From a virus: a stretch of 40,920 nt of DNA. The notes below the pieces were generated by a model. It did not search any database. It had not been told where the DNA came from and was given only the letters and a program-made list of their open reading frames with translations. The first letter of the stretch is position 1. The number at the start of each line of letters is the position of its first letter. The stretch lies in the IMG/VR virus record IMGVR_UViG_3300009553_000008, positions 1 to 40,920 of that record. The stretch is one strand, 5' to 3'. The translations under genes were made by a program, and so were the position numbers. Shown piece by piece: positions 1-32,076 of the stretch.

Positions 1-123
1 CCTCTCATTCGAGACAAAATCCTTGAGTTGAGTGGCGGCAAGCTGGGGAACATCTGGCTTCCTCACGACGCCAGGGCCAAGACGTTCCAGAGCAAGCACA
101 CCACAGTTGAGCAGTTCCTGAAG
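1..123. repeat. Terminal direct repeat, left copy (circular overlap)
   Basis: These 123 bases are identical to the last 123 bases of the window (40798-40920). The open reading frame of the large terminase continues in frame from one copy into the other. The simplest reading is an assembly of a circular or circularly permuted molecule in which the closing overlap was not trimmed. A genuine short terminal repeat is possible, but physical ends inside terL would be unusual. Confidence 0.95.
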
Positions 124-794: not shown

Positions 795-795
795 C

Positions 796-1194: not shown

Positions 1195-3311
1195 TGGCAG
1201 ACAAACCCGCTCAGCCCGAGAACCAAGACCCGGCCTTGCGCTGGGGATCTGAACTGAAGTTCGCCAAGAAGACGGACGACAAATGGATTGAGCGTTCACG
1301 CAAGATCGTGAAGCGATATCGGGATGAGCGTGACGCCATCGACAGCGAGGATAGGCGCTACAACGTCTTGTGGAGCAATGTCCGCACGCTGATGCCTGCG
1401 GTGTACTCTCGCAAGCCCAAGGCTGCTGTATCGCGTCGGAACAAGGATCGAAGCGACGTAGCCCGTACTGCATCGGCCATCCTTGAGCGTGCTCTGCAGT
1501 ATGAGCTGGAGTTCTACAACGACTTCGACAGCGGCATGCGCAATGCCATCCTTGATCGACTGTTGCCGGGTCGTGGTGTGTGCTGGGTCCGGTATGAGCC
1601 GCACTTCGGTGTAGCCACTCAGGTTACCGAGGATGTCGAGACGCCCGCACAAGAGGCTGCAGAGACGCAAGAGACGCTCAAGTACGAGTGCACCCCAGTG
1701 GATTACGTCTACTGGGAAGATTTCCGCATGGCTCCTGCTCGGACCTGGGAAGAGTGTGGCTGGGTGGCTAGGCGCGTCTACATGGGCAAGGAAGAGATCG
1801 TAGAACGCTTCGGTGATGACTACGCCGACGTTCCTCGCTCGCATGTTCCGCTGGGTCTTGATGAGAAGACAGACCCCAATGCCGATCGCATGAAGAAGGC
1901 AAAGATTTGGGAGATCTGGAGCAAGACTGACGGCAAAGTTTACTGGTACGCCGAGGGTTACCCGAGGTGCCTGGATGTCAAGGACGATCCGCTAGAGCTT
2001 GATGGTTTCTTTCCATGCCCGAAGCCTCTCTATGCCACGACGACCACGGACCAAATGGTGCCGGTGCCTGACTACATCGAGTACCAGGACCAAGCGCGTG
2101 AACTGGACGAGGTGACGACTCGGATCGCATACCTTGTCAAGGCCTGCAAGGTCATCGGTGTCTATGACGCATCGCAGACCGCCATTCAGCGCATGTTCAC
2201 CGAGGGGGCGGACAACACGCTGATCCCGGTCGACACGTGGGCGATGTTTGCTGAGAAGGGCGGCATCAAGGGCGCGATTGACTGGGTGCCGCTGGACATG
2301 GTCGTGCAGGCCCTCAATCAGCTCTACCTTGCTCGGGAGCAGATCAAGCAGGTGATCTACGAGGTCACTGGGATCTCTGACATCCTGCGCGGCGCATCGC
2401 AAGCCAGCGAGACGCTGGGAGCGCAGCAGATCAAGGCGCAGTTCGCCTCCATGCGCTTGGATGACATGAAAAAGGATGTGGCCCGGTTCGCATCCGACAT
2501 CATCCGAATCAAAGCACAAATCATGTGCTCCTTTTACTCGGATGACAGCCTGATCAAGATGTCAGGCATCCAAGACACGAAGGATCAGCCTTTCATTCCG
2601 CAAGCTCTCGCCATGTTGCGCAATGAGCCCATGCGGAACTTCGCTATCGAGGTCACGGCTGACTCGCTGGCCGAGATGGACGAGATCAGCGAGCGCGATG
2701 GGCGCATGCAGTTTCTCCAGGCTGCGGGTGGCTTCCTACGGGAGGCAGTGCAGGCGGCCCAGCAAGTGCCGGAGATCGCTCCTCTGATGGGCGAGATGCT
2801 CATGTTTGCCGTGCGGGCGTGGAAGACGGCCGAGCCGCTGGAGGCGTCGTTCGAAGAGGCAATCTCCAAGATGAGCCAGCCGAAGCCGCCTGCACCACCG
2901 AGCCCCGAGGCCATCAAGGCGCAGGCCGATGCGCAGAAGTCGCAGGTTGACGCCCAGGTTGCTCAAGTCAAGGCGCAATCCGAACAGGCCAAGGCTCAGG
3001 TCGAGATGCAGAAGAGCCAAGCTGAACTTGCGATGACGCAGATGGAAATGCAGCGCATGCAGATGGAGCAGCAGCAGGCCGGCGCATTGGAGCAGTTCAA
3101 GCAGCAGGCAGCCGCTCAGATGGAGGTGATGGCGATGCAGCATGAAAAGGCGCTAGAAGCCGCCCGCCTATCGTTCGATCAGTGGAAGGCTGAGCTTGAT
3201 GCCGCAACCAAGATCGAAGTCGCAAACATCTCCGCAGCCGTGAAGATGAACGACACAGCCACGGCTGCTGCGACGGCAGAGGCTACGCAAGAGCTGAAGG
3301 GCAACGACTAG
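1194..3311 (+). CDS. Portal protein
   Basis: At 705 residues this is the size of P22-type portals, which form the dodecameric channel at the packaging vertex and connect head to tail. The N-terminal half carries a portal-like pattern: an ERSRKIVKRYRDERD start, then YNVLWSNVRTLMPAVYSRKPK, and a later YLVKACKVIGVYDASQ helix. The C-terminal 130 residues (about 570-700) are a Gln/Ala/Met-rich coiled coil full of QAKAQ and QMEMQ repeats, resembling the barrel extension of long portals. It lies between terL and scaffold, the classic position. The start overlaps the preceding stop and the TAG stop overlaps the next GTG. Confidence 0.9.
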   Translation: MADKPAQPENQDPALRWGSELKFAKKTDDKWIERSRKIVKRYRDERDAIDSEDRRYNVLWSNVRTLMPAVYSRKPKAAVSRRNKDRSDVARTASAILERALQYELEFYNDFDSGMRNAILDRLLPGRGVCWVRYEPHFGVATQVTEDVETPAQEAAETQETLKYECTPVDYVYWEDFRMAPARTWEECGWVARRVYMGKEEIVERFGDDYADVPRSHVPLGLDEKTDPNADRMKKAKIWEIWSKTDGKVYWYAEGYPRCLDVKDDPLELDGFFPCPKPLYATTTTDQMVPVPDYIEYQDQARELDEVTTRIAYLVKACKVIGVYDASQTAIQRMFTEGADNTLIPVDTWAMFAEKGGIKGAIDWVPLDMVVQALNQLYLAREQIKQVIYEVTGISDILRGASQASETLGAQQIKAQFASMRLDDMKKDVARFASDIIRIKAQIMCSFYSDDSLIKMSGIQDTKDQPFIPQALAMLRNEPMRNFAIEVTADSLAEMDEISERDGRMQFLQAAGGFLREAVQAAQQVPEIAPLMGEMLMFAVRAWKTAEPLEASFEEAISKMSQPKPPAPPSPEAIKAQADAQKSQVDAQVAQVKAQSEQAKAQVEMQKSQAELAMTQMEMQRMQMEQQQAGALEQFKQQAAAQMEVMAMQHEKALEAARLSFDQWKAELDAATKIEVANISAAVKMNDTATAAATAEATQELKGND

Positions 3312-3637
3312 TGCCTATCTACAAAGCCCAATGTGAGTGCGGGCACGCACAAGACGTGTACTTGCCGCTGAGCAGGATGGATGACCTTCCGGACCACTGC
3401 GGCAAGAAGATGTTTCGAGCTGTCTGTGCACCGATGGTTATTGCTGATATTCAGCCTTACCGGTCCATGGCGACCGGAGAAATGATTGGTGGTCGCGCAC
3501 AGCATCGCGAGCACTTGAAGAAACACGGGTTGGTCGAAGTAGGCAACGAAAAGATCCCCGCTAAGCCGCAGCCGAAAGCGTCGACCACCGACCTCAAGGC
3601 TGATTTGTACAAAGTAGTCAATGGAATGGGTCTATGA
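3311..3637 (+). CDS. Zinc-ribbon protein between portal and scaffold
   Basis: 108 residues from GTG 3311. The N-terminus reads MPIYKAQCECGHAQDVYLPLSRMDDLPDHCGKK with a CxCG pair and a later HCG, like the FmdB-type zinc ribbons often found beside portal genes in podoviruses. The second half is basic and probably disordered. It overlaps both neighbours by 1-4 bases. The role is unknown; a head-morphogenesis or gene-regulatory helper is possible. Confidence 0.72.
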   Translation: MPIYKAQCECGHAQDVYLPLSRMDDLPDHCGKKMFRAVCAPMVIADIQPYRSMATGEMIGGRAQHREHLKKHGLVEVGNEKIPAKPQPKASTTDLKADLYKVVNGMGL

Positions 3638-4671
3638 GCGATCTTCGCGAAGCACTCGAAACAGCATTTGAGAGCGCCGAAACTGCACCTGTAGTTGAGT
3701 CGACGCCTGCCACCGAGTTGGCACAGGAAACTCAAGCCGAAGCAGAGGCACGCTCTCGTGATGAGAAAGGTCGCTTCGCTGCGAAGTCGGAGCCGGTCGA
3801 AGATGCGAAGATAACCAAGCAGCCTGAACTGAAGGCGCCTGCAGCAGCGACTGATTTGCCGCAAGATGCGCCGAAGCCGGAAGTTCAGGCTGATGCGATA
3901 AAGGCCCCAAACACGTGGCGTCCTGCAGCGGCAGCGAAGTTCGCGACTCTTGACCCGGAGATTCGCGCAGAGATCGAAAAGCGGGAAAACGATGCCCGAA
4001 TGGGTATCCAGCAATACAAACAGGCTGCAGACTTTGGTCGCGGCTTCGGTGAGGCAGCAAAGCCGTTTGAGCGCACATTTCAAGAGCTTGGAGTTACTCC
4101 GGTTCAGGCGTTTCAAACACTGTTGGCAGCAGACCACAAACTGCGCTATAGTCCGCCTCAAGAAAAGGCACGGTACTTTGCCGAGCTGGCTCAGCAGTAT
4201 GGAGTTAGCCTTGACCACATCAAGGAGGCTCCTCAGCCAGATCCGCAGTATCTGCATTTGCAGCAAGAGCTAAGTCAGCTCCGTCAGCAGCAGGAAAGTT
4301 GGCTTCGCCAGCAGCAGGAACAGGAAAGTAGCACCCTCACGAGCGCTATCGAACAGTTCAAGGCTGATCCGGCAAATCAACACTTCGAGGCAGTTCGAGA
4401 CGATATGGCAATGCTCCTTGAAAACGGGCGAGCCAAGTCACTCAAAGAAGCCTATGACATGGCCGTGTGGGTCCGACCCGATATCCGCTCCAACCTACTG
4501 AAACAACAGACGGAAGAAGCGGCGAAAAAGGCGCAGGAAGCATCTCACGTACAGCGCGCAAAGACTGCGGCAGTTGGCGTCAAGGGAAGCTCTCCGGCAT
4601 CTGGTTCGGCTACAGGCCCGAAAGACTCGTTGCGCGCCGAAATCGAAGCGGCGGCTGACAAATTCTTCTGA
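3634..4671 (+). CDS. Capsid scaffolding protein
   Basis: 345 residues starting MSDLREALETAF, highly charged and Ala/Glu/Gln-rich with an RSRDEKGRFAAK motif near residue 45, a common N-terminal signature of podoviral scaffolds. A coiled-coil segment (about residues 205-235, LQQELSQLRQQQESWLRQQQ) is predicted by eye. It lies immediately upstream of the coat gene. Scaffolds template procapsid assembly and then leave the shell. No protease gene is nearby, so release may not need proteolysis. Confidence 0.85.
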   Translation: MSDLREALETAFESAETAPVVESTPATELAQETQAEAEARSRDEKGRFAAKSEPVEDAKITKQPELKAPAAATDLPQDAPKPEVQADAIKAPNTWRPAAAAKFATLDPEIRAEIEKRENDARMGIQQYKQAADFGRGFGEAAKPFERTFQELGVTPVQAFQTLLAADHKLRYSPPQEKARYFAELAQQYGVSLDHIKEAPQPDPQYLHLQQELSQLRQQQESWLRQQQEQESSTLTSAIEQFKADPANQHFEAVRDDMAMLLENGRAKSLKEAYDMAVWVRPDIRSNLLKQQTEEAAKKAQEASHVQRAKTAAVGVKGSSPASGSATGPKDSLRAEIEAAADKFF

Positions 4672-4688
4672 CTTAACTGGAGTAACAA

Positions 4689-5681
4689 ATGCCCTCTTTT
4701 GCAAACGTAGCCGACATTGTCGCTACGACCATCCAAAGCCGAACCGGCAAACTTGCCGACAACGTCATGAAGAACAATGTTCTTCTGATGCGCATGAATG
4801 AGCGTGGGAATGTGAAGCCGTTTAGCGGCGGCAACGTGATTACGCAAGAACTCATGTACAACGATCCCAACACGCAGAACGCTGGTTCGTACAGCGGTTA
4901 TGACGTGGTGGACATCACCCCGAATAGCCCGATCTCTTTCGCCCAATTCGACATCAAGCAGTATTCCGCTGCCGTGACGATCTCGGGCCTGGAAATGCTG
5001 CAGAACTCTGGCAAAGAGCAGATCATCGATCTGTTGGAGGGCCGGATTCAGATTGCCGAGGCCCAACTGCAGAACCAGATCAGCGCTGGACTGTATTCGG
5101 ACGGCACCGGCAACAGCGGCAAGGACATCACCGGTCTGGCGGCTGCGATCTCGTCGACCCCGACGACCGGCACCTATGGCGGCATCAACCGCGCAACGTG
5201 GTCTTTCTGGCGAAATGTGGCCTTCTCGGCTGCGACTGACGGCGGTGCTCCGGCGACTTCTGCCAATATCCAGAGCTACATGAACCGCGTTGCCCTGCAG
5301 CTGGTTCGCGGCACGGATTCTGCTGATACCGCAGTTGCTGACAACAACTACTACCGTCTGTACTTGGAATCGCTGCAAAGCATTCAGCGCGTGACAGATG
5401 AGAAGTTGGCTGGTGCTGGCTTTACCTCGCTGAAATACTTCGGCGCAGGCAAGGCTGTTGATGTGGTTCTCGACGGCGGTATTGGTGGTTCGATCACTGC
5501 CAATACCATGTATTTCCTCAACACGAAATACATCTTCTTCCGCCCGCACCGTGACCGCAACATGGTCCCGATTGGTGGTGACCGTCAGTCCGTCAACCAA
5601 GATGCAATCGTGAAGCTGATGGGCTGGGCTGGCAATCTGACTTGCTCTGGCCAACAGTTCCAAGGCAAGCTCATCGCTTAA
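4689..5681 (+). CDS. Major capsid protein
   Basis: 330 residues from ATG 4689 with a GGAG ribosome-binding site at 4679-4682. It starts MPSFANVADIVATTIQSRTG and contains GGNVITQELMYNDP and HRDRNMVPIGGDRQSVNQDA, patterns I associate with HK97-fold coat proteins of podoviruses. There is no obvious N-terminal delta domain for cleavage. The position after the scaffold and before small decoration-type proteins supports the call. GC and codon choice suggest high expression. Confidence 0.9.
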   Translation: MPSFANVADIVATTIQSRTGKLADNVMKNNVLLMRMNERGNVKPFSGGNVITQELMYNDPNTQNAGSYSGYDVVDITPNSPISFAQFDIKQYSAAVTISGLEMLQNSGKEQIIDLLEGRIQIAEAQLQNQISAGLYSDGTGNSGKDITGLAAAISSTPTTGTYGGINRATWSFWRNVAFSAATDGGAPATSANIQSYMNRVALQLVRGTDSADTAVADNNYYRLYLESLQSIQRVTDEKLAGAGFTSLKYFGAGKAVDVVLDGGIGGSITANTMYFLNTKYIFFRPHRDRNMVPIGGDRQSVNQDAIVKLMGWAGNLTCSGQQFQGKLIA

Positions 5682-5692
5682 GGAGAAACGAA

Positions 5693-5992
5693 ATGGCAAC
5701 TCCCTTCAATGTATCCAACAGCGTCGGCGCTGATCTGAAAACGATCACGCTGGCTGCTGATCTCGCTTCCGGCGCCCTGAAGCCAAATGCTCGTCTCGGG
5801 CAAGAAGTCTTCGGCAGCGACGGCAAGCTGTATGTGTACGGTCAGGCCAACGCCGCAATCACTGCATCGACTGCTGTGTGCACGGTAAATGCCTCGACTT
5901 TCCTTGTCACTGCTTCGGGTGGTGCCTATACCTCCCCGGCTACCACCATGGCAAGCGGGGACCAAGGCTGGTTCTCGAAGGCCTCGGTGTAA
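5693..5992 (+). CDS. Head decoration-like protein
   Basis: 99 residues from ATG 5693, preceded by AAGGAG at 5681-5686. Composition is Ala/Thr/Ser/Gly-rich and beta-type (KLYVYGQANAAITASTAVCTV). It directly follows the coat gene, where many phages carry a decoration or stabilisation protein. I assign it by position and composition only. Confidence 0.7.
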   Translation: MATPFNVSNSVGADLKTITLAADLASGALKPNARLGQEVFGSDGKLYVYGQANAAITASTAVCTVNASTFLVTASGGAYTSPATTMASGDQGWFSKASV

Positions 5993-6002
5993 GGAGCTGA
6001 CT

Positions 6003-6389
6003 ATGCCTGGGTTCCTCCGCACTCTCATGGGTGGTGGGCTCTCGGCTGGTCAGGCCAACGCGATCAATGGATATGGCACGGCCGGCGCTACGGCGACCGG
6101 TGCCACCCAAGCAACCGCGTATCCTCTCCAGAACGAGTTCACTGAGTTCACGACTGTTGCCGCGTCGACTGGTGCTCTCCTGCCGGCTCCAACGGCAGTG
6201 AATGCACCGGCCACCGGTGATGCCTTCCTTGTCGCCAATCAGGGTGCGAATGCCTTGCTGGTGTATCCGCCCCTCGGCTTCTCCATCGGTACGGCTGCAG
6301 CCAATGCAGGTGTGTCGGTGGCGGCCGGCAAGGTTGGGTACTTCATTGCCAAGGGCAACGGCACCTACTGGGGCGGCTCTCTCGCCTGA
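6003..6389 (+). CDS. Putative head-associated protein, Ala/Gly-rich
   Basis: 128 residues from ATG 6003 with AAGGAG at 5992-5997. The N-terminus MPGFLRTLMGGGLSAGQAN is followed by a long low-complexity Ala/Thr/Gly region and a C-terminal beta-type stretch ending YFIAKGNGTYWGGSLA. A stable terminator hairpin follows the stop, so this gene closes the high-expression coat cluster. A second decoration or spike-like protein is plausible but not demonstrated. Confidence 0.68.
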   Translation: MPGFLRTLMGGGLSAGQANAINGYGTAGATATGATQATAYPLQNEFTEFTTVAASTGALLPAPTAVNAPATGDAFLVANQGANALLVYPPLGFSIGTAAANAGVSVAAGKVGYFIAKGNGTYWGGSLA

Positions 6390-6402
6390 TCCTTGGTCCT
6401 TC

Positions 6403-6422
6403 GGCCCTTCGGGGCCTCTTTT
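6403..6422 (+). terminator. Rho-independent terminator after the coat cluster
   Basis: A perfect 5-bp GC stem GGCCC/GGGCC with a UUCG tetraloop is followed by TCTTTT. The U-tract is short and interrupted once. Partial termination here would make coat and decoration mRNAs more abundant than downstream tail mRNAs. Confidence 0.8.
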
Positions 6423-6433
6423 CTGGAGCACAA

Positions 6434-6979
6434 ATGCAGCGCACCGATGACAATCTCTTTGTTGAGTTCTACATGGGCGCCATGCCCTCGGAGATCAAAA
6501 GCAAGGAACAGGGCTACCCGGTTCACATCGAAGTCCCGTTCATTCGCATCAACATCCCGGGTGACATCAACAACCAGATTGACACGCGTGCCGAAGAGCA
6601 CCACAAGCAGAGGTTTGCTGTGCAGTGGGGTCGTTTCGAGGCCGGTCAATCCCAGGGCATTCAAGGTTGGCGCCTTGAGGACTGGCCTGCAGTCTCGACT
6701 GCCCAAGTGCGCAATCTGAAGCATCTTGGCGTCCACACCGTTGAGCAGATGTCGAATCTGACCGACACCCAATGCCAAAAGGTCGGCATGGGCGCGATGG
6801 AGCTTCGCTTGAAGGCCAAAGGCGCACTTGAGAAGGCAAAGGGCGATGTCGACGAAAACGCCGAGCTGAAGGCGCAGCTCGCTGAAATGCAGATGCAACT
6901 CAAGGCGCTGGCGTCGGCCCAAGGCGAGCCGGAGAAGCGTGGCCCGGGTCGTCCGAAGAAAGATCCCGTCGAGGCCTAA
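6434..6979 (+). CDS. Virion morphogenesis protein, unknown family
   Basis: 181 residues from ATG 6434 with TGGAG at 6424-6428. The N-terminal two thirds contain FYMGAMPSEIKSKEQGYP and VPFIRINIPGDINNQ. The segment about 110-125 (NLKHLGVHTVEQMSNLTD) resembles a helix-hairpin-helix. A Lys/Glu helix follows and the tail ends KRGPGRPKKD, an AT-hook-like motif that may touch DNA. Proteins of this type occur between coat and neck genes in podoviruses; the role is not established. Confidence 0.65.
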   Translation: MQRTDDNLFVEFYMGAMPSEIKSKEQGYPVHIEVPFIRINIPGDINNQIDTRAEEHHKQRFAVQWGRFEAGQSQGIQGWRLEDWPAVSTAQVRNLKHLGVHTVEQMSNLTDTQCQKVGMGAMELRLKAKGALEKAKGDVDENAELKAQLAEMQMQLKALASAQGEPEKRGPGRPKKDPVEA

Positions 6980-6982
6980 GTC

Positions 6983-7885
6983 ATGAATTTGCTCCAGCTC
7001 GTTCAGGCGGTGACCAGCGAGTTGGGGTTGCCGATGCCGAATGCTGTCGTGTCCAACCCGGACACGCAGATTCAACAGCTCTATGCCTTCATCAACCGGC
7101 TTGGTCGTGATCTTGCCCGGGACTTCGAATGGCAAGAACTGCAGAAGACCTACGTCTTCACGACGAGCGCGTTTGACTCAACAGGCACCCTTACGGCTGG
7201 ATCATTGGTCATGACGGCTATCCCGTCGACGGCCCAGCTCTCGACGGACTGGAATGCATCGAACACGTCGCTTCCGGCCTATGCAGACATCATCTCAGTC
7301 GACAGTGGAACTCAGGTAACGCTGAATCAGGCTGCCCTCACTTCCGGGACGAGCACAGTCACCTTCTCAAAGGTCCGTTACGCACTCCCGAGCGACTGGG
7401 AGAAGCAGATCCCGCAGACCGAGTGGGACCGCACGCAGCACTGGCCCCTTGCTGGGCCCGCGACGAATCAGCAGTGGGGCTACCTGCAAGGCGGCATCGT
7501 CTCGACTGGGCCATGGCTGCGCTTCCGCATCTCGGGTGATCGATTCGCGGTGAATCCGAACCCACCGAACGGTGAGGTTCTATCATTCGAATACATGTCG
7601 AATGCCTGGGTCATTCCGCTGACCGGGACGAACAAGTCAGGTTTCACGCTTGACACAGATTCGTGCATCTACGACGACTCACTGATGATCCTTGGCACCA
7701 AAAAGCTTTGGCGCCAAGAGAAGGGTTTCGAGTCGAGCATTGTTGAGCGCGACTATCAGTACATGCTTGAACGTTGTACCTCTCAGAACAAGTCGGCACC
7801 GAAGCTGAACATGGCCCCGCGCCCGAGTACGATCCTGCTAGGGCCGTGGAACTTGCCAGATGGAAATTTCCCGGGACCTACCTGA
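6983..7885 (+). CDS. Putative neck/tail adaptor protein
   Basis: 300 residues starting MNLLQLVQAVTSELGL, with an N-terminal helical segment (INRLGRDLARDFEWQELQKTY) followed by beta-rich sequence. Proteins with this N-terminus follow the coat genes in many podoviruses and are thought to be head-tail adaptors. The 3' end overlaps the opposite-strand HNH gene by 8 bp, so the endonuclease gene sits right at this gene's end. The last residues (GNFPGPT) could have been altered by that insertion. Confidence 0.68.
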   Translation: MNLLQLVQAVTSELGLPMPNAVVSNPDTQIQQLYAFINRLGRDLARDFEWQELQKTYVFTTSAFDSTGTLTAGSLVMTAIPSTAQLSTDWNASNTSLPAYADIISVDSGTQVTLNQAALTSGTSTVTFSKVRYALPSDWEKQIPQTEWDRTQHWPLAGPATNQQWGYLQGGIVSTGPWLRFRISGDRFAVNPNPPNGEVLSFEYMSNAWVIPLTGTNKSGFTLDTDSCIYDDSLMILGTKKLWRQEKGFESSIVERDYQYMLERCTSQNKSAPKLNMAPRPSTILLGPWNLPDGNFPGPT

Positions 7886-8384
7886 TCCAGGCTTTATTTT
7901 GAATAATCCAGCCAATCATCGAGTCGCAAAGCCCGTATCTCTCTCCAAGCTTCTTGTAAGAGAGGCCCGTATCCTTACGATCTTTGCGAATTTCGTCAGC
8001 AATGTCGAAGTTTATTTTCGCATTGCCGCGGCTTGCGTAGTTTGCTCCCCGCACTTTGCTGTACTCAACATTCTCGGTTGGAGTAAGGTACTCAAGATTT
8101 CTTACATTGGGATTTCCTCTATTAAGGTCTTTGTGGTTGATCTGCATTCCATCGGGACGAGGACCAATAAATGTTTCTGCAACTAGCTTGTGAACAGTGA
8201 CATGCTTGAAGCTTCCATCCCTGGACAGAACGACGCGCGGGTAGCCGTCGTCGTTCATGTGGTGCTTCATGATTCGAGATCGTCGGAAATGGTTTCTGCA
8301 ATCAACCCGATCAACGGATCGGACGGTTCCGCATTCAGAAACCTCGTAGAAGCCCTCGTAGCCGACGCATGGTTTGAAGATCAT
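7878..8384 (-). CDS. NUMOD4-HNH homing endonuclease (antisense to the virion operon)
   Basis: 168 residues from ATG 8384. Domains in order: a NUMOD4-type start (GYEGFYEVSECGTVRSVDR, residues 8-26), an HNH core (VHKLVAETFIGPRP, then INHKDLNRGNPNVRNLEYLT, about 68-105), and a C-terminal helix-turn-helix (IADEIRKDRKDTGLSYKKLG to about 165) for DNA binding. Free-standing HNH genes of this type cut cognate intronless or endonuclease-less alleles and spread by repair. It lies between two tail genes and reads against them. Its -10 box ends 6 bases before the ATG and there is no Shine-Dalgarno, so the mRNA is probably leaderless. A longer in-frame start at 8426 is less likely. Confidence 0.87.
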   Translation of the reverse strand: MIFKPCVGYEGFYEVSECGTVRSVDRVDCRNHFRRSRIMKHHMNDDGYPRVVLSRDGSFKHVTVHKLVAETFIGPRPDGMQINHKDLNRGNPNVRNLEYLTPTENVEYSKVRGANYASRGNAKINFDIADEIRKDRKDTGLSYKKLGERYGLCDSMIGWIIQNKAWIR

Positions 8385-8390
8385 GAGCCA

Positions 8391-8399
8391 ATTATAGCA
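8391..8399 (-). promoter_or_regulatory. Extended -10 promoter for the HNH gene
   Basis: On the minus strand TGCTATAAT gives a perfect TATAAT at 8396-8391 with an upstream TG. There is no good -35, as is usual for extended -10 promoters. The start codon begins 6 bases after the hexamer, placing the transcription start at or next to the A of ATG. This would let the endonuclease be expressed apart from the virion operon. Confidence 0.65.
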
Positions 8400-8410
8400 G
8401 GGATGGTCTA

Positions 8411-9967
8411 ATGCAACGTAGGTCAATCCCGGCCAACAGGAAGCAGGTTAGTCGCACCGCGTCTATCCCTGCTCCGGTGGCTGGCTGGAATGCGCGCGAT
8501 GTGATATCTGACATGCCACCAGGAGACGCTGTCGTTCTCGACAACTTCTTTCCAAAGGCGACGGTCGTCTCCCTGCGTGAGGGCTACACCAATCACGTCA
8601 CTGGCATTACGGGAACCGTCGAGACGTTGGTTGCATACAACGGTGTTTCGACGCAGAAGCTATTCGCGGCAGCCGGCAACAACATCTACGATGCTACCGC
8701 AGCAGGTGTTGTTGGCGCCCCTGTTGTTACAGGGCAATCAAGCGCGCGCTGGCAGCATACGAACATCTCGACGGCTGGCGGTCAGTTTCTATACCTCGTG
8801 AATGGTGCAGACAAGCCACAGCTCTACAACGGCACTACGTGGACGGCTATCGACGGAGCATCGACGCCGGCAATCACTGGCGTCACGACAACCAATCTCA
8901 TCCACGTCAATCTGTGGAAGAACCGTATCTTCTTCACCGAGAAAAGCTCGCTGAAGGTGTGGTATCTGCCAACCTCGTCCATCGGTGGAGCCGCGAGCGC
9001 AATCGACTTCACGTCGCTATTCACGGATGGCGGCTACCTGATGGCGATGGCTACATGGACCATCGATGCCGGCTACGGTATGGACGACCATGCGGTGTTC
9101 ATCACGTCTCAGGGTCAGGTGGCCGTGTATCGAGGAACGGACCCGTCGTCAGCGTCCACTTTCGCGCTCGTCGGCGTATACACAATCGGCTCGCCGGTCG
9201 GTAGGCGCTGTTTCGCCAAGTACGGTTCGGACCTGATCATCATCTGCCAAGACGGGCTGATGCCGCTATCCAAAGCACTGATGTCGTCTCGCGTCAACAC
9301 GGGGATCAGCCTGACGGACAAGATTCAGCAGGCAATGAGCGAGTCGGTGACGATCTCAGGCAGCCTGTTTGGCTGGGAGTGTCAGGTCTACCCGAAAAAC
9401 AACATGGTGATCCTGAACGTGCCATACAACAGCACGACGACGTATCAGTACGTCATGAACTCCATCACCGGGGCATGGTGCAGGTTCCTTGGGTGGAATA
9501 CAACATGCTGGGAGATGTTTCAGGAAGAGATGTATTTCGGCGGATCTGGCCGAGTATGCCATGCGTTCTCGGGAACATCCGATAACGGACTGTCGATCTC
9601 AGGTGATGTGACGCAGGCGTTCAGCTACTTCGGGGCAAACACGTCGCAGAAGCGCTTCCTGTTGGCTCGGCCGATTCTGTATGCGGACAGCCCGTCTGTT
9701 GGGGTGTCGCTCGGAGTGGCTATCGACTTCGACCTGAATGCAATCCTGAACTCACCGACGTTTTCAAGCATCGGCAACATTGGTATTTGGGATTCAAGCG
9801 TTTGGGATGGTGCTGTTTGGGGTGGCGACTTGGCTCTGCGGAAGGACTGGCTCAACATTCAAGGCGTTGGTTATGCCGCAGCGCTGAGAATGAAGACATC
9901 TAGCCTTGCATCCCAACTACAATGGGCGTCGACGGATTTCGTCATGGAGTACGGCGGGATTGTGTAG
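8411..9967 (+). CDS. Tail protein (tail stabilisation/hub type)
   Basis: 518 residues from ATG 8411. The N-terminus SIPAPVAGWNARDVISDMPPGDAVVLDNFFPKATVVSLREGY is very similar in type to podoviral tail proteins that form the nozzle or hub. The rest is an all-beta, repeat-like protein with many aromatic/Gly strands, compatible with a beta-propeller. It lies between the adaptor and the internal virion proteins. The assignment to the short-tail complex is inferred from pattern and position. Confidence 0.78.
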   Translation: MQRRSIPANRKQVSRTASIPAPVAGWNARDVISDMPPGDAVVLDNFFPKATVVSLREGYTNHVTGITGTVETLVAYNGVSTQKLFAAAGNNIYDATAAGVVGAPVVTGQSSARWQHTNISTAGGQFLYLVNGADKPQLYNGTTWTAIDGASTPAITGVTTTNLIHVNLWKNRIFFTEKSSLKVWYLPTSSIGGAASAIDFTSLFTDGGYLMAMATWTIDAGYGMDDHAVFITSQGQVAVYRGTDPSSASTFALVGVYTIGSPVGRRCFAKYGSDLIIICQDGLMPLSKALMSSRVNTGISLTDKIQQAMSESVTISGSLFGWECQVYPKNNMVILNVPYNSTTTYQYVMNSITGAWCRFLGWNTTCWEMFQEEMYFGGSGRVCHAFSGTSDNGLSISGDVTQAFSYFGANTSQKRFLLARPILYADSPSVGVSLGVAIDFDLNAILNSPTFSSIGNIGIWDSSVWDGAVWGGDLALRKDWLNIQGVGYAAALRMKTSSLASQLQWASTDFVMEYGGIV

Positions 9968-10413
9968 TGAAAACCATCGTCTTCGACCATCCTCGCGTAT
10001 CTCGCTGGGTTTGCGAAAGAACAGGAGGACAACCAGATGGGATCGGGCAATCGATCGGCCTTGAACAAGATGGGCTGTTGATTGCCGGCGTGATGTATGA
10101 TAACTACAACGGTCGCAGCATATGTATGCATGTGGCCGGTGAAGGTTCATGGATGAGCCGAGAGTATCTTAGGATTTGCTTTGACTATCCGTTTCGGCAG
10201 CTCAAAGTAAATCAGGTGATTGGTCTAGTGGATAGCTCGAACCGGGCCGCTCGTCGCTTCGATGAGCACGCTGGCTTCAAGCTTCAGTGTGTAATTCCCA
10301 ACGCGGGGTCTGTGGGTGATCTGTGCATTTACAGCATGTCATCTTCAGAGTGCAGGTTTCTGCAACTGAAGGAACGACATGGGCGGCAAGAGCAGTGCAC
10401 CTCCGGCACCTGA
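9967..10413 (+). CDS. GNAT-family N-acetyltransferase-like protein
   Basis: 148 residues from GTG 9967, whose G is the last base of the previous stop. The body has GNAT features: LLIAGVMYDNYNGRSICMHVAGEG (central strands), then QVIGLVDSSNRAARRFDEHAGF, which matches the motif B arrangement of an Asn/Ser-Arg-Ala helix followed by a Gly-Phe turn. GNAT proteins transfer acetyl from acetyl-CoA to amines. It sits between tail and internal-protein genes, so a virion or host protein may be the target. It overlaps the next gene by 35 bases. Confidence 0.78.
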   Translation: MKTIVFDHPRVSRWVCERTGGQPDGIGQSIGLEQDGLLIAGVMYDNYNGRSICMHVAGEGSWMSREYLRICFDYPFRQLKVNQVIGLVDSSNRAARRFDEHAGFKLQCVIPNAGSVGDLCIYSMSSSECRFLQLKERHGRQEQCTSGT

Positions 10414-11137
10414 CTACACGGCAGCAGCGAAAGCGACGGCCGACAGTCAGCGCAACAACTACACGACTCCTTACGGCAATCAGACTTGGTCTCAAGGCCC
10501 TGATGGCACGTACACGAACAATGTCACGCTGAGTCCGGATCAGCAGAAGCTTCTGGATCAGCAGAACCAGACTTCGCTGCAACTCGGGAGCCTTCAAGGC
10601 TCCGCTACGAACCGTGTCGGCCAAATGCTCGGACAGGGTTTCGACACATCGTCCCTGCCTTCCGCACCAATCAATCCTGGGCAAACTGCTCAGCAGGCCA
10701 TCATGGCTCGCTTGCAGCCGCAGTTTGACCGCAGCGATGAGCAACTGCGCAACCGGCTTGCCAATCAAGGCATCATGCCGGGCTCCGAGGCGTACAACAA
10801 CGAGATCAACCTAGCCGGCCAGAACAAGAATGACGCCTATTCTCAAGCAGCGTTGCAAGGCATCAACCTTGACACAGGAGCCCGTAAGAGTGCTTTCGAT
10901 GAGCAGAGCTACCTGCGCCAACTCCCTTTGAACGAGCTGAACGCACTTCGCTCCGGTTCCCAAGTACAGAACCCGAACTTCAGCGGCGCCCCAAAGACTG
11001 GCGTTGACATGACTGGCGCCATGCAAAACCAGTACAACTCACAGTTGGCTAGCACGAACGCCAACAATGCGGCGAATGGACAGACCTGGAGTACGGTTGG
11101 TCAACTGGGTGGATTGGCTGCGGCCTTCATGTTCTGA
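10379..11137 (+). CDS. Putative internal virion / DNA ejection protein
   Basis: 252 residues beginning MGGKSSAPPAPDYTAAAKA, a start I associate with podoviral internal or tail-tip proteins. The middle is Gln/Asn-rich and helical (RSDEQLRNRLANQGIMPGSEAY), and the C-terminus is a short hydrophobic Gly/Ala segment (GQLGGLAAAFMF). Its size and location upstream of two further internal-protein genes fit the set of three ejection proteins seen in P22-like phages. The function is inferred. Confidence 0.72.
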   Translation: MGGKSSAPPAPDYTAAAKATADSQRNNYTTPYGNQTWSQGPDGTYTNNVTLSPDQQKLLDQQNQTSLQLGSLQGSATNRVGQMLGQGFDTSSLPSAPINPGQTAQQAIMARLQPQFDRSDEQLRNRLANQGIMPGSEAYNNEINLAGQNKNDAYSQAALQGINLDTGARKSAFDEQSYLRQLPLNELNALRSGSQVQNPNFSGAPKTGVDMTGAMQNQYNSQLASTNANNAANGQTWSTVGQLGGLAAAFMF

Positions 11138-11673
11138 TGGATGCACAAACCATCATCAAGAGCGCAAAGTCAGTCGACTGGAGCGATGAGGAGGCGCTCG
11201 TCAGCAAACTATCGTTCTCCTATCAGATCATCAAGGCAAGCGAACGCCTGTTGAGCGAGGCGATTGAGGAGCTTCCCGATGGGAGGCTCCGCACGTACTA
11301 CGTTGAGCACCTGGAAGAGGAAAAGAATCACGCTGAGTGGCTGCTGGAAGATCTCGGATTCACTCCTGCATACAGCCCTCTCGCGGCTGCAATCGCGGGC
11401 AGTCAGTACTATCTTATCAAGCATGAGCACCCTGCGGCACTTCTTGGCTACATGGCTGTGCTTGAAGGAAATGGACCAACGCTGGATTTCATCAACGCCA
11501 TGGAGGTTATCCACGGCCGGAAGATCATGCGGACTTGGCGTCATCACGTAATGGCTGATATCGAGCACCACAAGGATATCCAAGAGGAAATCAAAGCTCA
11601 CCCCGAACATGCAAAGCTGATCGAGATGAACGCGATCCAGACGGCCTATTACTTGGTGTCTCACAATGGCTGA
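11137..11673 (+). CDS. Heme-oxygenase-like diiron (HDO) family protein
   Basis: 178 all-helical residues. Spacing of possible metal ligands matches the heme-oxygenase-like diiron fold: Glu61 x3 His65 in EEKNHAEWL, Glu110 in AVLEGNG, His136/137, and Asp141 x3 His145 in DIEHHKDI. Members of this superfamily bind two irons and oxidise small substrates, or act as iron-containing redox enzymes. It overlaps the next gene by 8 bases and lies among virion genes. It could be an enzyme expressed late, a virion component, or a fold reused for structure. Confident on fold type, not on reaction. Confidence 0.7.
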   Translation: MDAQTIIKSAKSVDWSDEEALVSKLSFSYQIIKASERLLSEAIEELPDGRLRTYYVEHLEEEKNHAEWLLEDLGFTPAYSPLAAAIAGSQYYLIKHEHPAALLGYMAVLEGNGPTLDFINAMEVIHGRKIMRTWRHHVMADIEHHKDIQEEIKAHPEHAKLIEMNAIQTAYYLVSHNG

Positions 11674-12805
11674 CTTCAACCCATACGGAATCCAGTCCGA
11701 TCAGCTTGATATCGATCAGCAGCGCAAGCTTGCGCAAGCTCTGCAGTCGATTGGTCAGCAAGGCAGTCAAGGACAGATGGTGTCAGGCCACTACGTTGGA
11801 CCGGGCAAGCTTGGCGGGCTCGCAAGCTTCCTATCGCAGATCGGTGGCGGACTGATGCAGGGTCAGGCAGATAGCAAGCAGAAGGCGCTTGCACAAGCCA
11901 TCGCCACAAAGAAGCAGGAATGGATGCAAGGGCTTCCGCAGGCGACTCCTGCACAGGCCATGGACATGGGGGCAATCGATCCTTCCATGGCTCAGTATGG
12001 TCAGCTCGAAACTGCTCCTGCAACACAGCCCACTCAGAAGGACATGTTCAATTGGGGTATGCAGGGTATGGCGATTGATCCGGAAATGGCGAAGATGGCA
12101 ATGGCGCTGTCTCAGAAGAGCGGTCCAGAGTATTCTCAGAAACCCGAGGTTGACCAAAACGGCCGAGCCTATGTTCTCGATAAGCAAGGGAATGTGAAGT
12201 ACCTGCAGGGAGCAAACGGCACCATCGGCCAGCGTGAAAAGTTGGAAAACGTGAACGGCGTCTTCGTGAACCCGTACACCGCAGCTCCGCGAGCTGTCGC
12301 GCCGCAAGATGTGAACAAGCCATTTGGTATCGGACCGAATGGTGAGCAAGTGCCAAACGTTCCGTTTCAGCAGTACAGCAAGGAGAAGGCGAAGGCTGGT
12401 GCATCGAACGTCAACGTCAAGACCGATGTCAAGACGGGCGAGAGCTTGGCCGCGCAGGTCGGTCCGATGATGAAGGACTCTGCATCTCAGGCTGAAGCTG
12501 CTGTCAAGCAGGTCGATGCAGCCCAACGAGTCGTCAAGGCGGTCGAATCGAATAAGCTTTTCGTTGGCCCCGGCGCCAATACGAAGCTCAAGGCAACGCA
12601 GATTTTTGACACGTTCGGCGTGGCCGGCGCAGACGATGCTGAGAAGCTCGCGAACACCCGTTCAGCGATCCGCGGGCTTGCTGAGTTGACCCTGCAAGGG
12701 CGTCAGCAGATGAAGGGTCAGGGCGCCATCACCGAGAGCGAAGGCAAGCTGGCAGAGAAAGCCATGTCCGGCGACATCACAGATCTGACCGCAGCCGAGC
12801 TGTAG
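11666..12805 (+). CDS. Internal virion protein interrupted by an in-frame amber codon
   Basis: 379 residues to the TAG at 12803-12805. The sequence is Gln/Ala/Gly/Lys-rich and helical with MADFNPYGIQSDQLDIDQQR at the start and an Ala-rich region near 270-300 (QAEAAVKQVDAAQRVVKAVE). It belongs in position and composition to podoviral ejection proteins. The frame does not end naturally at the TAG: it continues for 63 sense codons to a TGA at 12995-12997 that overlaps the next ATG. Either the stop is read through, or it is a recent nonsense mutation or a sequence error. Confidence 0.75.
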   Translation: MADFNPYGIQSDQLDIDQQRKLAQALQSIGQQGSQGQMVSGHYVGPGKLGGLASFLSQIGGGLMQGQADSKQKALAQAIATKKQEWMQGLPQATPAQAMDMGAIDPSMAQYGQLETAPATQPTQKDMFNWGMQGMAIDPEMAKMAMALSQKSGPEYSQKPEVDQNGRAYVLDKQGNVKYLQGANGTIGQREKLENVNGVFVNPYTAAPRAVAPQDVNKPFGIGPNGEQVPNVPFQQYSKEKAKAGASNVNVKTDVKTGESLAAQVGPMMKDSASQAEAAVKQVDAAQRVVKAVESNKLFVGPGANTKLKATQIFDTFGVAGADDAEKLANTRSAIRGLAELTLQGRQQMKGQGAITESEGKLAEKAMSGDITDLTAAEL

Positions 12806-12997
12806 CAGCTTGCGAAGGCCTCTGAGCGCGCTGCACGGTTCAACTACGCCCAGCACGAACGTCGCATGAGCAGCGTTCGCGACAAACCTGAGTTCAAGAC
12901 GGTTGCCCCTTTCTACGAGGCCCCGCAGATGCCGGCTGAGCAGGCTGGTGGAGCGGCTCCGTCCAATAGCGGCTGGTCAATCAGTCCGGTGCCCTGA
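12803..12997 (+). other. Readthrough extension of the internal virion protein gene (amber plus 63 codons)
   Basis: After TAG the same frame reads QLAKASERAARFNYAQHERR and ends SNSGWSISPVP before TGA. Composition continues that of the upstream protein (TDLTAAEL-stop-QLAKASERAA forms one amphipathic helix). The TGA overlaps the next start as TGATG, the coupling used throughout this operon, whereas a true end at the TAG would leave an atypical 191-base gap. The TAG is followed by CAG and differs by one C-to-T change from CAG. Confidence 0.8.
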
Positions 12998-14751
12998 TGC
13001 CAAAGTATCAAGTCACCTCGCCGGACGGCCAGAAATTCGAGGTCAACGCGCCTAATGGGGCAACCCAAGATCAGGTGTTGGCGTTCGCTCAATCACAGTT
13101 CAAGAACCAAGGTTCTTCAACACAGGACCAATCAGGCTACGCTTACAAGGCGCTTGATATAGGCGCTCGACGGGCATCAAATGCTGCCGCAGGGGTCAAC
13201 TATGGAATGATTCCGGGAACTCTCGGAGTTCCGGTTGACACTGTTGCGAACGTCATCGATTTGGCAAAAGCAGGCATCGGATCTTTGTATGGTGGGGTAA
13301 CCGGCAAGACGCCACCAGAGGCGCTGGAGCCGATGGACCGATCAAAGACGTTCGGCACATCGCAATGGATCGCTAACCAGATCCGCAAGCTTCCGTATGG
13401 CACAAACTTCATCGACAACCAAAATCCAAACGATGAAGCATCTCGCCTCATGTACTCCGGTGGCGCCGCCGCTGGCGGAGCGCTCATGTCTGGAAGTGCT
13501 CTTGGCGCCCCTGTTTCCCCTTCGCAGATCCCGACAGCAGTAGCGTCTGGCGCGGCGTCTCAGTACGCCGCAGACAAGTTCCCGGATGATCCAGCCATTG
13601 CTGCTACGGCTGGCATGCTTCCAATTGCGGCTTCGAATATCGCAGGTGATGCAGCGCGCTCAAAGATCGCAAACCTACAGGCAGAGAAGCTTCGCAACAT
13701 GGAGCGCGACGAGACATTGAAGCGGGCCATGGATGCCGGCTATCAGATCCCGCCATCCACCGTCAACCCGAGCGCAACGAACCGAGTGCTTGAGAGCATC
13801 GCCGGCAAGGTGGCAACTCAACAGGCCGTCTCGTCGAAGAACACGCAGGTAACGGATGCTCTCGCCCGCAAGGCGACTGGCCTCCCCGAAAACGTTCCGC
13901 TCACAGAAGAGGCAATGCAATCTGTCCGCAAGGATGCTTACAACCAAGGGTACAAGCCGGTTGAGCAGCTCGGACAGATCAGCAGCGGTCGCCTGTATCG
14001 CGACGACTTGAACAAAATAGAACAGCAGTATCAAGGCGCTGCGCGTTCATTTCCTGGCGCCGTTCGGAATGATGTTTCCGAAATGCTAGCTCCTTTGCGC
14101 CGCCGAAGCTTCGATGCTGGTGATGCGCTCAAGATGACGCAGATCCTGCGCGATGAGGCATCGAAGTCATTCACATCTGGCGATGCGGCTCTAGGCAAAG
14201 CTCAGCGTGCTGCAGCTACAGCAATTGAGGATCAGATCGAACGCGGCATCCCTGCTGCGCAGAACCCGGACTTGGTCAAGAACTTCAGAGAAGCTCGCCA
14301 GCTCATGGCGAAAACTCACACGGTTGAGGATGCGATCCGCTCGGGAAGCGGCAGCGTCGATCCGAATGCTATCGCTCGCGAACTGCAGAAGGGTGCGCCT
14401 CTGTCTGGTGACCTGGAGACGATTGGACGCTTCGCAAACACCTTCAAGAAGGCCAACCAGACCCCGCAGGTTGTTGGAAGCCAAGGGGTTAGCAAGAGCG
14501 CTGCGTTGGCATCTGCGTTGATGGGTGGCGGCGGCGCTGTGGCTGGTGGTCCTGTTGGTGGTGTGATTGGTGCAGCAGCTCCGTTCGTCGTGCCGCCAGC
14601 AGCTCAGGCTCTGATTCTGTCCAAGCGCTATCAAGCTATGCAGCAACCGGACTACAAAGCAAGCATGCTCGCTCGGATGCTTGCCGCGTCTCCCGAGATG
14701 GATTATCAGGCGCTCCTGCAGCAGCCGCAGAACATTCAAGGGAGACAATAG
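12997..14751 (+). CDS. Internal virion / DNA injection protein
   Basis: 584 residues from ATG 12997. The N-terminal 35 residues (MPKYQVTSPDGQKFEVNAPN, then TQDQVLAFAQ) match the small domain that begins many phage internal proteins. Two Gly/Ala-rich hydrophobic stretches, about 150-180 and about 505-545 (SALMGGGGAVAGGPVGGV), look like membrane-active glycine-zipper segments. Between them is a long helical region. Such proteins are ejected with the DNA and help form a conduit across the envelope. It is the third of three probable ejection proteins. Confidence 0.78.
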   Translation: MPKYQVTSPDGQKFEVNAPNGATQDQVLAFAQSQFKNQGSSTQDQSGYAYKALDIGARRASNAAAGVNYGMIPGTLGVPVDTVANVIDLAKAGIGSLYGGVTGKTPPEALEPMDRSKTFGTSQWIANQIRKLPYGTNFIDNQNPNDEASRLMYSGGAAAGGALMSGSALGAPVSPSQIPTAVASGAASQYAADKFPDDPAIAATAGMLPIAASNIAGDAARSKIANLQAEKLRNMERDETLKRAMDAGYQIPPSTVNPSATNRVLESIAGKVATQQAVSSKNTQVTDALARKATGLPENVPLTEEAMQSVRKDAYNQGYKPVEQLGQISSGRLYRDDLNKIEQQYQGAARSFPGAVRNDVSEMLAPLRRRSFDAGDALKMTQILRDEASKSFTSGDAALGKAQRAAATAIEDQIERGIPAAQNPDLVKNFREARQLMAKTHTVEDAIRSGSGSVDPNAIARELQKGAPLSGDLETIGRFANTFKKANQTPQVVGSQGVSKSAALASALMGGGGAVAGGPVGGVIGAAAPFVVPPAAQALILSKRYQAMQQPDYKASMLARMLAASPEMDYQALLQQPQNIQGRQ

Positions 14752-14752
14752 C

Positions 14753-15472
14753 ATGCCCTTCGGAGGAACAGGTTCGTTTTCCCTCGTATCGGGGAATCCT
14801 GTCGTTACGGGTACGAACATCAGCTCAGTCACACAAAACAACACCATGAGCGATTTCGCCAATGGTTTTGGAAACTGCGTGACTCGCGATGGTCAGTCTC
14901 CGCCTACCGCAAACCTACCGATGGGTGGGCAGAGGCATACAGGAGCCGGTAATGCGTCAGGCGTTGGTGAGTATGTCGTCTATGGTCAGACAGTCACGCT
15001 GGGCTATGTCAGCAGCCCAAATGTATCTGCCGTCATTGCGCATAGGACTGGCTCTGCGTTGACGATTCCTGTGAGCGCGGTAACCACCGTTGTTTTTGAC
15101 AGCGAGGTTATCGATAGAGCATCGAACTACGACACATCGACCGGTATATTCACGGCCCCTGTTGCTGGCGTTTATCTTGTAACTACATCGCTGCGCCTAC
15201 AGAACAACGGTATTTCTGCAACAACGATGGATAATGCATATCTGTCGAAAAATAACGCTACAACGTCGTCTTCTACGGATGCAGTCAGACTCTCTCAAGC
15301 AACCGAATCTTCGTCAATCAACGCAGGCAGCAATCCATTCGATATGACGGGATCGCATCATTTCTCTCTGGCGGCCAGTGACACATTGCGCGTGAAAATA
15401 GCGATGGGCACTGGCGGTGTTGGATTGAATCTGCTGACAGGGTCGGCGTTTTCTGTGACCTTCTGGGGGTGA
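14753..15472 (+). CDS. Tail fibre protein with C1q-like C-terminal domain
   Basis: 239 residues from ATG 14753. The first 60 residues (MPFGGTGSFSLVSGNPVVTG, then NCVTRDGQSPPTANLPMGG) form a virion-attachment module shared with the tailspike at 16043. The C-terminal 130 residues (VVFDSEVIDRASNYDTSTG then FTAPVAGVYLVTTSLRLQN) match the C1q/TNF jelly-roll, a trimeric receptor-binding fold. The linker holds a VVYGQTVTLGY segment. It should be a short trimeric receptor-binding protein. Confidence 0.83.
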   Translation: MPFGGTGSFSLVSGNPVVTGTNISSVTQNNTMSDFANGFGNCVTRDGQSPPTANLPMGGQRHTGAGNASGVGEYVVYGQTVTLGYVSSPNVSAVIAHRTGSALTIPVSAVTTVVFDSEVIDRASNYDTSTGIFTAPVAGVYLVTTSLRLQNNGISATTMDNAYLSKNNATTSSSTDAVRLSQATESSSINAGSNPFDMTGSHHFSLAASDTLRVKIAMGTGGVGLNLLTGSAFSVTFWG

Positions 15473-15492
15473 TTGTGCCGACCCGATTCGCA

Positions 15493-15993
15493 TCATTCCT
15501 TCGGTTTTCGTCCAGGCTTCCCGATGGGATACAACAATTCCTCAATTGGAATCTTCTTCTCGTAGTAGTAGAAGCGATCAAGCGCCGTCTTGCAAAGGCG
15601 GCAAGCCCTGATACCTCTCTTCGCATCGAAGACAACGTTTTCTTCTGTGAACTCGTGGCCCCGCTTACAGTGCGTTCTCGCCTTGCGAGCTTTTGCAGCG
15701 GCATCTACAGCCGTCAAGATAGAATTTCTAGAATTCTGGATCTGCTCCTTTTGCGTTGCCCACCTTGTATTTCCAGGCTCATAGCCTTTGTCGTTGTCAA
15801 TTCTGTCCAAGCTAAGGCCAAACGGCCTGTCGCCAACATCGGAAGCGAAGTCTTTGAAGGAAGAACGCCATCTCTCACAGACCGTGATTCCTCGGCCGCC
15901 GTAGTTCTTGTATTCCTTTCGGTTCGGATTCGTGCAACGCTGGATCATATTGGCCCACGTGTTGTAGAGAGAGTGCTTGGCCTTGTTTCGCAT
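15493..15993 (-). CDS. HNH endonuclease between the two receptor-binding protein genes
   Basis: 166 residues from ATG 15993 with AAAGGAG at 16005-15999. The core reads YNTWANMIQRCTNPN, YKNYGGRGITVCERW and LDRIDNDKGYEPGNTRWAT, the typical pattern of phage HNH proteins of this type. A C-terminal zinc-knuckle-like segment follows (HCKRGHEF, then CRLCKTALDRFYYY). It reads against the virion genes and fills the gap between fibre and tailspike. The longer frame up to 16296 is only antisense to the tailspike. Confidence 0.87.
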   Translation of the reverse strand: MRNKAKHSLYNTWANMIQRCTNPNRKEYKNYGGRGITVCERWRSSFKDFASDVGDRPFGLSLDRIDNDKGYEPGNTRWATQKEQIQNSRNSILTAVDAAAKARKARTHCKRGHEFTEENVVFDAKRGIRACRLCKTALDRFYYYEKKIPIEELLYPIGKPGRKPKE

Positions 15994-16042
15994 AGATGCT
16001 CCTTTGAAAAATCCATGATAACACAAATTCGAGGGGTACAAC

Positions 16043-18148
16043 GTGCCGTTTAATGGAATCGGGGGATACACACTTGTAGCGGGGAATCCAGTTGTAACTG
16101 GGACGACCATCTCATCCACCGTCCAAAACAACACGACGACGGACTTCGCGAACGCGTTCGCGAACTGCATTACACGCGATGGACAGTCGCCCGCACTATC
16201 GAACATTCCTCTTGGCGGATTCAAGATCACGGGGCTTGCGGCTGGCACAACCAATGGAGACGCCATTCGATGGGAGCAGGTACTTCTTACTGACACCTCC
16301 AGCGCTTCAAATGGATCGGGGCAGGTCTATCACAATTCAACGCTGACCTATGATCCTCGCAGCGTTGGGGCTCGCCTGAACCGCCGCGTACACGTCAAAG
16401 ACTACCCTTGGCTTGCAAAGGGCGATGGAACGACCGACGACACCGCAGCCATCAATGCTGCATTGACTTGGCTATCCAGCGTTGGAGGCGGAACGCTTGA
16501 TGGAATTGGCGGACGCTACCGCATCACTAGCAAAATCACTATTCCCTCGTTCGTTAGGTTATTCGGAGACAACTGGCTACCAGATCCGAGCAACTTGCAG
16601 CAAGCGCACTTCACGGCAATCTACGTCGACTTCGGTAGCGGACTCGCCCCAGGATCAGGAAATCATGCCATTGAGATGCAGACAAGCTCCGGCATCGAGG
16701 GCTTTCTATTCTGGTATCCGGGCCAAGTTGCAAAAACTGCAGCAACGCCTACTTCGTTCGACTATTCAATCAGCACACCGATTGCAGGCTCGCCTTACGA
16801 CAATATCCACGTCAAGAACATCACTTTCTACAACAGCTATGCCGGCATGAATCTTAGCAATGGAGGCCGATGGAATGTTGAGAACATTCAGGGCGATCCG
16901 CTGTTCATTGGATTCACCGCGACCAATTGCTTCGATGTCTGCTATGCGAGGAAGGTCCACTTCTGGAACTTTTACACCCAAGCAGCGGCGCTCGAAACAT
17001 GGGTTGCTGCCAATGCGACTGCTTACAACTTCGGGCGCATAGATCAGCTGATGGGAGACGCTCTGTTTTCATGGAATAGAAACATTGCATTCGATCTCGG
17101 GGCAAATTTCTGGGGCAGTCTGAGCAATATCTGCGTTGACTTCGCAAATATTCCAATGCGATTTACATCGGTATCGCAAACCAATATCAATAACTTCGTC
17201 TTCATTGGATCAGCATCCGCCAAACCAGGGATTCATGTTGTCAGCGCGACGGGCGGTATCAACTTCTCCAACGGAAAGCTGACATCATCCATCGGGGTTG
17301 GGGCGCAGATCGACGGTGGCGACAAGGTGTCATTTTCCAACGTCACATTCTCAAACCAACATGCGGCGGTTGTTTGCACGAGCACGACCACTGAAGTGAA
17401 TGTCAATTCGTGCACTTGGGCCGTTCCGCCTTGGGGAACAAGCAATGTCAAGATCAACGGGATTCCCTTGCCCGCCATCTCGACGGCGATCACGCTGCCG
17501 GCTCCCACTGCAACGCCTACGGTTATTGGTGGCGGGTATCGCTTTGATCTGTCGACAGCCGGAACGAAGGCGCTCCAATACAACATGGGCTCCATTGCGC
17601 AGCGCAACTCGCTACATATTCTGGAGTTCGACTACACGATCAATGGAACCTCTACCACGTTCAACTTCCAATTTATCGTAGACAAGGACGTGGGCGGTCA
17701 ACGACAGGTGACGATGGCACCAACCTATCCATTGATCGTCAATGGCACACCGAAGAAGGTGCGCATCCCGTTCTTCATCAACGGCGCGCAGAACCTGACG
17801 CTGATGTCAATTCTCGTCACGCCCACGGTCACAGTCCCCGGCGCTTCGGTGGACATGACCAACATCGTTCTCTATGAGGCCAGCAATGCCAGCATGAGCG
17901 ATGTTCAGTGCGCCGCAATGATCAAGAACGGCTATAACCTTGACTTCTACGGGGTCGGCGCGTCTACCAAGATCGATGGCAAAAACCGAACGGTGTATCC
18001 GGTGCTAGACCCCGGAATTCGCACCACGGAAGTCCCAACGCAGGGCGCCTGGATCGTCGGCGACAAGATGATGGTTATTGCCCCCGCTACTGTTGCGGGA
18101 AGTTGGAAACTCTGCACTGTTGCAGGAACACCGGGGACGTGGGTATGA
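16043..18148 (+). CDS. Tailspike with pectate-lyase-like beta-helix
   Basis: 701 residues. The N-terminal 60 residues are paralogous to the fibre at 14753 (MPFNGIGGYTLVAGNPVVTG, TRDGQSPALSNIPLGG). After a linker, VHVKDYPWLAKGDGTTDDTAAINAAL (residues about 117-140) is the standard opening of phage pectate-lyase-superfamily spikes. A right-handed beta-helix follows to about residue 460, then a C-terminal beta domain. Such spikes bind and often cleave surface polysaccharide. Substrate and catalytic residues cannot be read from sequence. Confidence 0.88.
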   Translation: MPFNGIGGYTLVAGNPVVTGTTISSTVQNNTTTDFANAFANCITRDGQSPALSNIPLGGFKITGLAAGTTNGDAIRWEQVLLTDTSSASNGSGQVYHNSTLTYDPRSVGARLNRRVHVKDYPWLAKGDGTTDDTAAINAALTWLSSVGGGTLDGIGGRYRITSKITIPSFVRLFGDNWLPDPSNLQQAHFTAIYVDFGSGLAPGSGNHAIEMQTSSGIEGFLFWYPGQVAKTAATPTSFDYSISTPIAGSPYDNIHVKNITFYNSYAGMNLSNGGRWNVENIQGDPLFIGFTATNCFDVCYARKVHFWNFYTQAAALETWVAANATAYNFGRIDQLMGDALFSWNRNIAFDLGANFWGSLSNICVDFANIPMRFTSVSQTNINNFVFIGSASAKPGIHVVSATGGINFSNGKLTSSIGVGAQIDGGDKVSFSNVTFSNQHAAVVCTSTTTEVNVNSCTWAVPPWGTSNVKINGIPLPAISTAITLPAPTATPTVIGGGYRFDLSTAGTKALQYNMGSIAQRNSLHILEFDYTINGTSTTFNFQFIVDKDVGGQRQVTMAPTYPLIVNGTPKKVRIPFFINGAQNLTLMSILVTPTVTVPGASVDMTNIVLYEASNASMSDVQCAAMIKNGYNLDFYGVGASTKIDGKNRTVYPVLDPGIRTTEVPTQGAWIVGDKMMVIAPATVAGSWKLCTVAGTPGTWV

Positions 18149-32060: not shown

Positions 32061-32076
32061 GTGCGACGGTTTTGGT

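Follow-up and report, generated by a model that had tools for sequence, protein, structure and literature searches.

A private in-frame amber codon in a virion-module gene of an Mx8-like phage, probably a nonsense variant or a consensus error

Results and Discussion

An amber codon private to one record

It was found that a TAG codon interrupts a conserved gene at positions 12803-12805 (plus strand) of the virus record IMGVR_UViG_3300009553_000008 (the window, that is, the whole stretch of 40,920 bases analysed here). This TAG is very probably a private single-base nonsense change from a lysine codon, AAG, arising either by recent mutation or by an error in the metagenomic consensus. The sequence from 12794 to 12814 reads GCC GAG CTG TAG CAG CTT GCG. 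On the plus strand, the ORF from 11666 to 12805 encodes a short form of 379 residues ending in the TAG, and the frame then stays open for 63 more sense codons (12806-12997, including the TGA at 12995-12997). The TGA overlaps the start codon of the next ORF at 12997 as TGATG, and the read-through frame amounts to 443 residues ending in SISPVP. Thus, the in-frame TAG, the open frame behind it, and the junction with the next start codon, all reported in the first-pass annotation, were confirmed from the sequence and the ORFs.

Is the stop codon shared by related phages? Relatives were gathered from IMG/VR and GTDB genomes, with prophage relatives in Herminiimonas and Comamonas. In the alignment of the closer set, 44 relatives cover the column of codon 380, while one further fragment stops short of it. 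The column holds lysine (AAG or AAA) in 32 of the 44 relatives, arginine in 10, and glutamate and valine in one each; none of the 44 has a stop codon or glutamine there. The nearest relative, IMGVR_UViG_3300010397_000037 (hereafter G001), which is 95% identical in amino acids over 443 residues, carries AAG as codon 380, flanked by the same CTG and CAG CTT as in the window. No stop was found at the aligned column in a wider set of relatives either, and the stops seen in a six-frame survey of relatives were set aside, all of them lying just 5′ of the start codon and outside the gene. A search of the phage collection revealed no near-identical phage records.

Since lysine predominates in the column and G001 has AAG, the ancestral codon was one for lysine, in all likelihood AAG. 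The base change at 12803 is therefore A-to-T, not C-to-T. A CAG-to-TAG origin had been proposed from the window alone; with no glutamine among the relatives and AAG in G001, it was rejected. None of the 44 relatives ends at this point. Intact orthologues one base change away from TAG exist, as in G001, and among the sequences compared the TAG is private to the window record. The remaining amino acid differences in the gene lie at variable columns or are conservative (E/D at residue 294). Of the options offered at first pass, recent mutation or assembly error is the one that the absence of the stop from the 44 relatives and from the 95%-identical G001 supports.

A single A-to-T change at 12803 in the lineage sampled, or a wrong base in the consensus of the contig, would account for the observation, and a dedicated recoding mechanism would be unnecessary. 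I infer that a real change would be recent. If it is real and unsuppressed, the protein would end at residue 379, losing the rest of a conserved helix (residues 376-405) and 38 residues beyond it. T may well supported be the majority base at 12803. Given how conserved the gene is, it would be surprising for a thriving phage to have fixed a nonsense variant that is not suppressed.

The interrupted gene and its surroundings

The record carries a terminal direct repeat of 123 bases, with identical copies at 1-123 and 40798-40920, and probably represents a circular genome assembled to closure, one gene running across the join. The head-and-tail module occupies approximately positions 1-16,000, where PHROG matches include a portal, a major head protein, and a protein annotated as an amidase. 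Of these, the major head protein shares approximately 52% identity with its counterparts in the short-tailed Myxococcus phage Mx8 and Stenotrophomonas phage BUCT555. The phage is Mx8-like, and the interrupted gene belongs to its virion module. Two neighbouring genes of the module are alike at their starts (14753-15037 and 16043-16327); one G001 protein matches both with 57-79% identity over 95 residues, perhaps reflecting a shared N-terminus of tail proteins.

The interrupted gene had been called an internal virion protein gene. Its late place in the structural module fits this name, while similarity to known ejection proteins was not found. PHROG and Pfam searches of the protein gave no match, and neither did a PDB fold search with its low-confidence model at E <= 0.001. 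Only the position in the module suggests an internal virion (ejection) role.

The next gene (12997-14751, plus strand) encodes 584 residues. There is no obvious Shine-Dalgarno motif upstream of its ATG at 12997; judging from the sequence, its translation is probably coupled to ribosomes that reach 12997 through the full-length frame. Early termination at the TAG would then probably lower the translation of this gene.

The tail beyond the amber codon

The tail aligns with G001 along its full length and with the C-termini of the relatives, shows no further disruption, and is kept in all 44 relatives after the codon-380 column, with a length of 51-72 residues. Against G001, dN/dS is 0.030 for the codons upstream of the stop and 0.047 for the tail (0.014 over codons 381-425), with no significant difference between the two parts in their numbers of synonymous and nonsynonymous codons (Fisher p = 0.27). 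By these substitution patterns, the tail is a genuine coding sequence under purifying selection, like the body of the gene. This selection mostly records the time before the stop arose and is also compatible with suppression in the present day.

An AlphaFold2 model of the protein has a mean pLDDT of 58.6 and is better in the C-terminal half. Residues 376-405 are modelled as a helix (block pLDDT approximately 80-88) with codon 380 near its start, which bears out the first-pass remark that one helix continues across the TAG. The short form might instead be functional in this lineage, the tail becoming a relic, as the otherwise undamaged frame upstream of the TAG would allow. I consider this highly improbable: the tail is kept in every relative, its dN/dS shows no clear relaxation, and the cut would fall at the start of the conserved, predicted helix.

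TAG as a terminator in the same genome

Is TAG an ordinary stop codon in this phage? TAG ends a terminase fragment, the portal gene (1194-3311, plus strand), and the ORFs at 8513-9967 and 12997-14751, at positions matching the stops of G001. The portal TAG stands opposite a TGA in G001, and in the ORF at 8513-9967 a TGA directly follows the TAG as a second stop. Since these terminators are aligned with the stops of the relative, TAG functions as a stop in this lineage. Avoidance of TAG as a terminator was not seen, as several genes of the window end in it. When the large plus-strand structural genes were compared with G001, no other internal stop was read, leaving one clear TAG case; the other stop-bearing matches were overlapping-frame ORFs or weak, divergent matches. 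Thus, genome-wide or late-gene reassignment of TAG was rejected, given the TAG terminators and one internal TAG instead of many.

The host may tolerate the nonsense codon by means of an amber-suppressor tRNA or weak natural misreading of UAG, making the full-length protein at a reduced level. The intact frame and tail are in keeping with this, as is the conservation of the gene across relatives. On the other side, no independent sign of suppression was seen, and TAG ends the four genes above where those of the relative stop. Moreover, Herminiimonas and Comamonas, the genera of the prophage relatives, use the standard genetic code. Host suppression is therefore quite unlikely. Put more broadly, decoding of the TAG in the natural host, by a suppressor tRNA or a leaky UAG, with readthrough limiting the amount of full-length virion protein, is likewise unlikely.

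Programmed readthrough giving two forms of the virion protein was another option offered at first pass. UAG-CAR-YYA is a leaky stop context in plant viruses, and TAG CAG CTT resembles it with the last base missing. The same CAG CTT is present in G001, which has a sense codon before it; the context was therefore inherited and did not evolve for readthrough. No relative has a stop at this codon, and the tail seems to continue a predicted helix and to add no domain. A readthrough hairpin was also rejected, because the RNA 3′ of the TAG folds no better than shuffled sequences (z = +1.26 in the window and +0.16 in G001). The proposal of programmed readthrough is left without support, and I regard it as very unlikely.

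tRNA-like RNAs of the phage

The first-pass annotation had pointed to odd tRNA-like RNAs in the genome as possible suppressors. These RNAs do exist. A tRNA-Leu-like RNA at 36536-36674 (plus strand) scores 38.8 bits as a tRNA in an Rfam scan of a short stretch. It has 7/7 acceptor pairing and D and T arms, while a structured insert of approximately 66 nucleotides replaces the anticodon loop (fold z = -2.88). A possible second element at 32075-32214 (plus strand) has a T arm, a 3′ acceptor strand, and CCA, with no D arm recognised and no notable Rfam match. Their candidacy as suppressors was not supported. CTA and TTA are absent from both elements at any position, and therefore neither element can present an unedited CUA anticodon.

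Suppression encoded by the phage, or reassignment of TAG in late genes in the style of crAss-like phages, would draw on such tRNA-like RNAs. No standard tRNA was detected by ARAGORN at default settings or by an Rfam scan of the whole window. ARAGORN at a lowered threshold returned low-scoring candidates in the hundreds; those listed included a CTA anticodon, and the candidates were treated as noise. With no CTA in the tRNA-like elements, and with one internal TAG and several TAG terminators among the genes compared, such phage-borne decoding is extremely unlikely. The wider proposal of suppression by a tRNA of phage or host thus found no support, as other genes of this phage end in TAG in the ordinary way.

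The nearest relative has tRNA-Ser(CGA), tRNA-Ser(GCT), and tRNA-Arg(TCT) together with a tRNA-like match with an odd anticodon arm (L014:6401-6660 and L015:10163-10233, minus strand); ARAGORN found no tRNA in the window. A scan of viral contigs for D and T arms like these of the tRNA-Leu-like RNA, separated by a spacer of 70-100 nucleotides, gave at least 119 loci (L145-L263). Among these listed loci, there are 97 distinct spacers, 84 loci have 7/7 acceptor pairing, and in none does a canonical anticodon arm immediately follow the D arm. The search pattern itself selects long spacers, and a few matches may be pairs of adjacent tRNAs. The RNA at 36536-36674 possibly belongs to a class of phage tRNA-Leu-like RNAs that is widespread. 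Among the titles and abstracts searched, no clear description of a phage tRNA-like class lacking the anticodon arm was found.

How often do isolated stops occur?

I aligned the structural proteins of the window with related contigs, some of which overlap in part, and surveyed the 732 alignments, approximately 192,000 aligned residues in all. Two other interior stops were found, a TGA in a portal gene (L026) and a TAA in a scaffold-like gene (L039), while the remaining stops lie at protein ends. In the former contig, the frame remains intact past the TGA (L026:3569). Scaled to the structural genes of the window, roughly 0.06 interior stops are expected per genome, a figure based on these two cases and on contigs with partial overlap. 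Since two other interior stops occur among related contigs, one isolated stop is within this background.

Implications for annotation

A nonsense variant or consensus error at 12803 matters mainly for annotation. The gene is best recorded as one 443-residue protein with an interrupting stop, not as a short protein followed by a spare frame. The stop looks like an ordinary private nonsense variant and not like a signal of programmed readthrough. If the TAG were truly decoded, it would be a case of natural amber suppression in an uncultivated phage. The tRNA-Leu-like RNA at 36536-36674 is of greater interest than the TAG.

Comparison with known systems

Mx8 has virion structural proteins of 428 and 583 residues late in its module, like the two genes of the window at 11666-12997 and 12997-14751. 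In sequence, however, neither the interrupted gene's protein nor that of the next gene resembles the Mx8 protein at the corresponding position. An in-frame TAG in a phage gene is also a feature of the TAG-recoded crAss-like phages with suppressor tRNAs, as described in two reports (PMC10879173, PMC7886860). Compared with that description, the window has one such TAG instead of many, its TAG codons terminate genes, and no suppressor tRNA was found in it. According to Belinky et al. (2021, PMC7918605), in-frame stops occur widely among prokaryotic genes, are for the most part transient, and are commonest in the mobilome category. The stops in that study are common to at least two genomes, whereas the present one is confined to a single record; in both cases, one in-frame stop interrupts a gene that is otherwise intact and subject to purifying selection.
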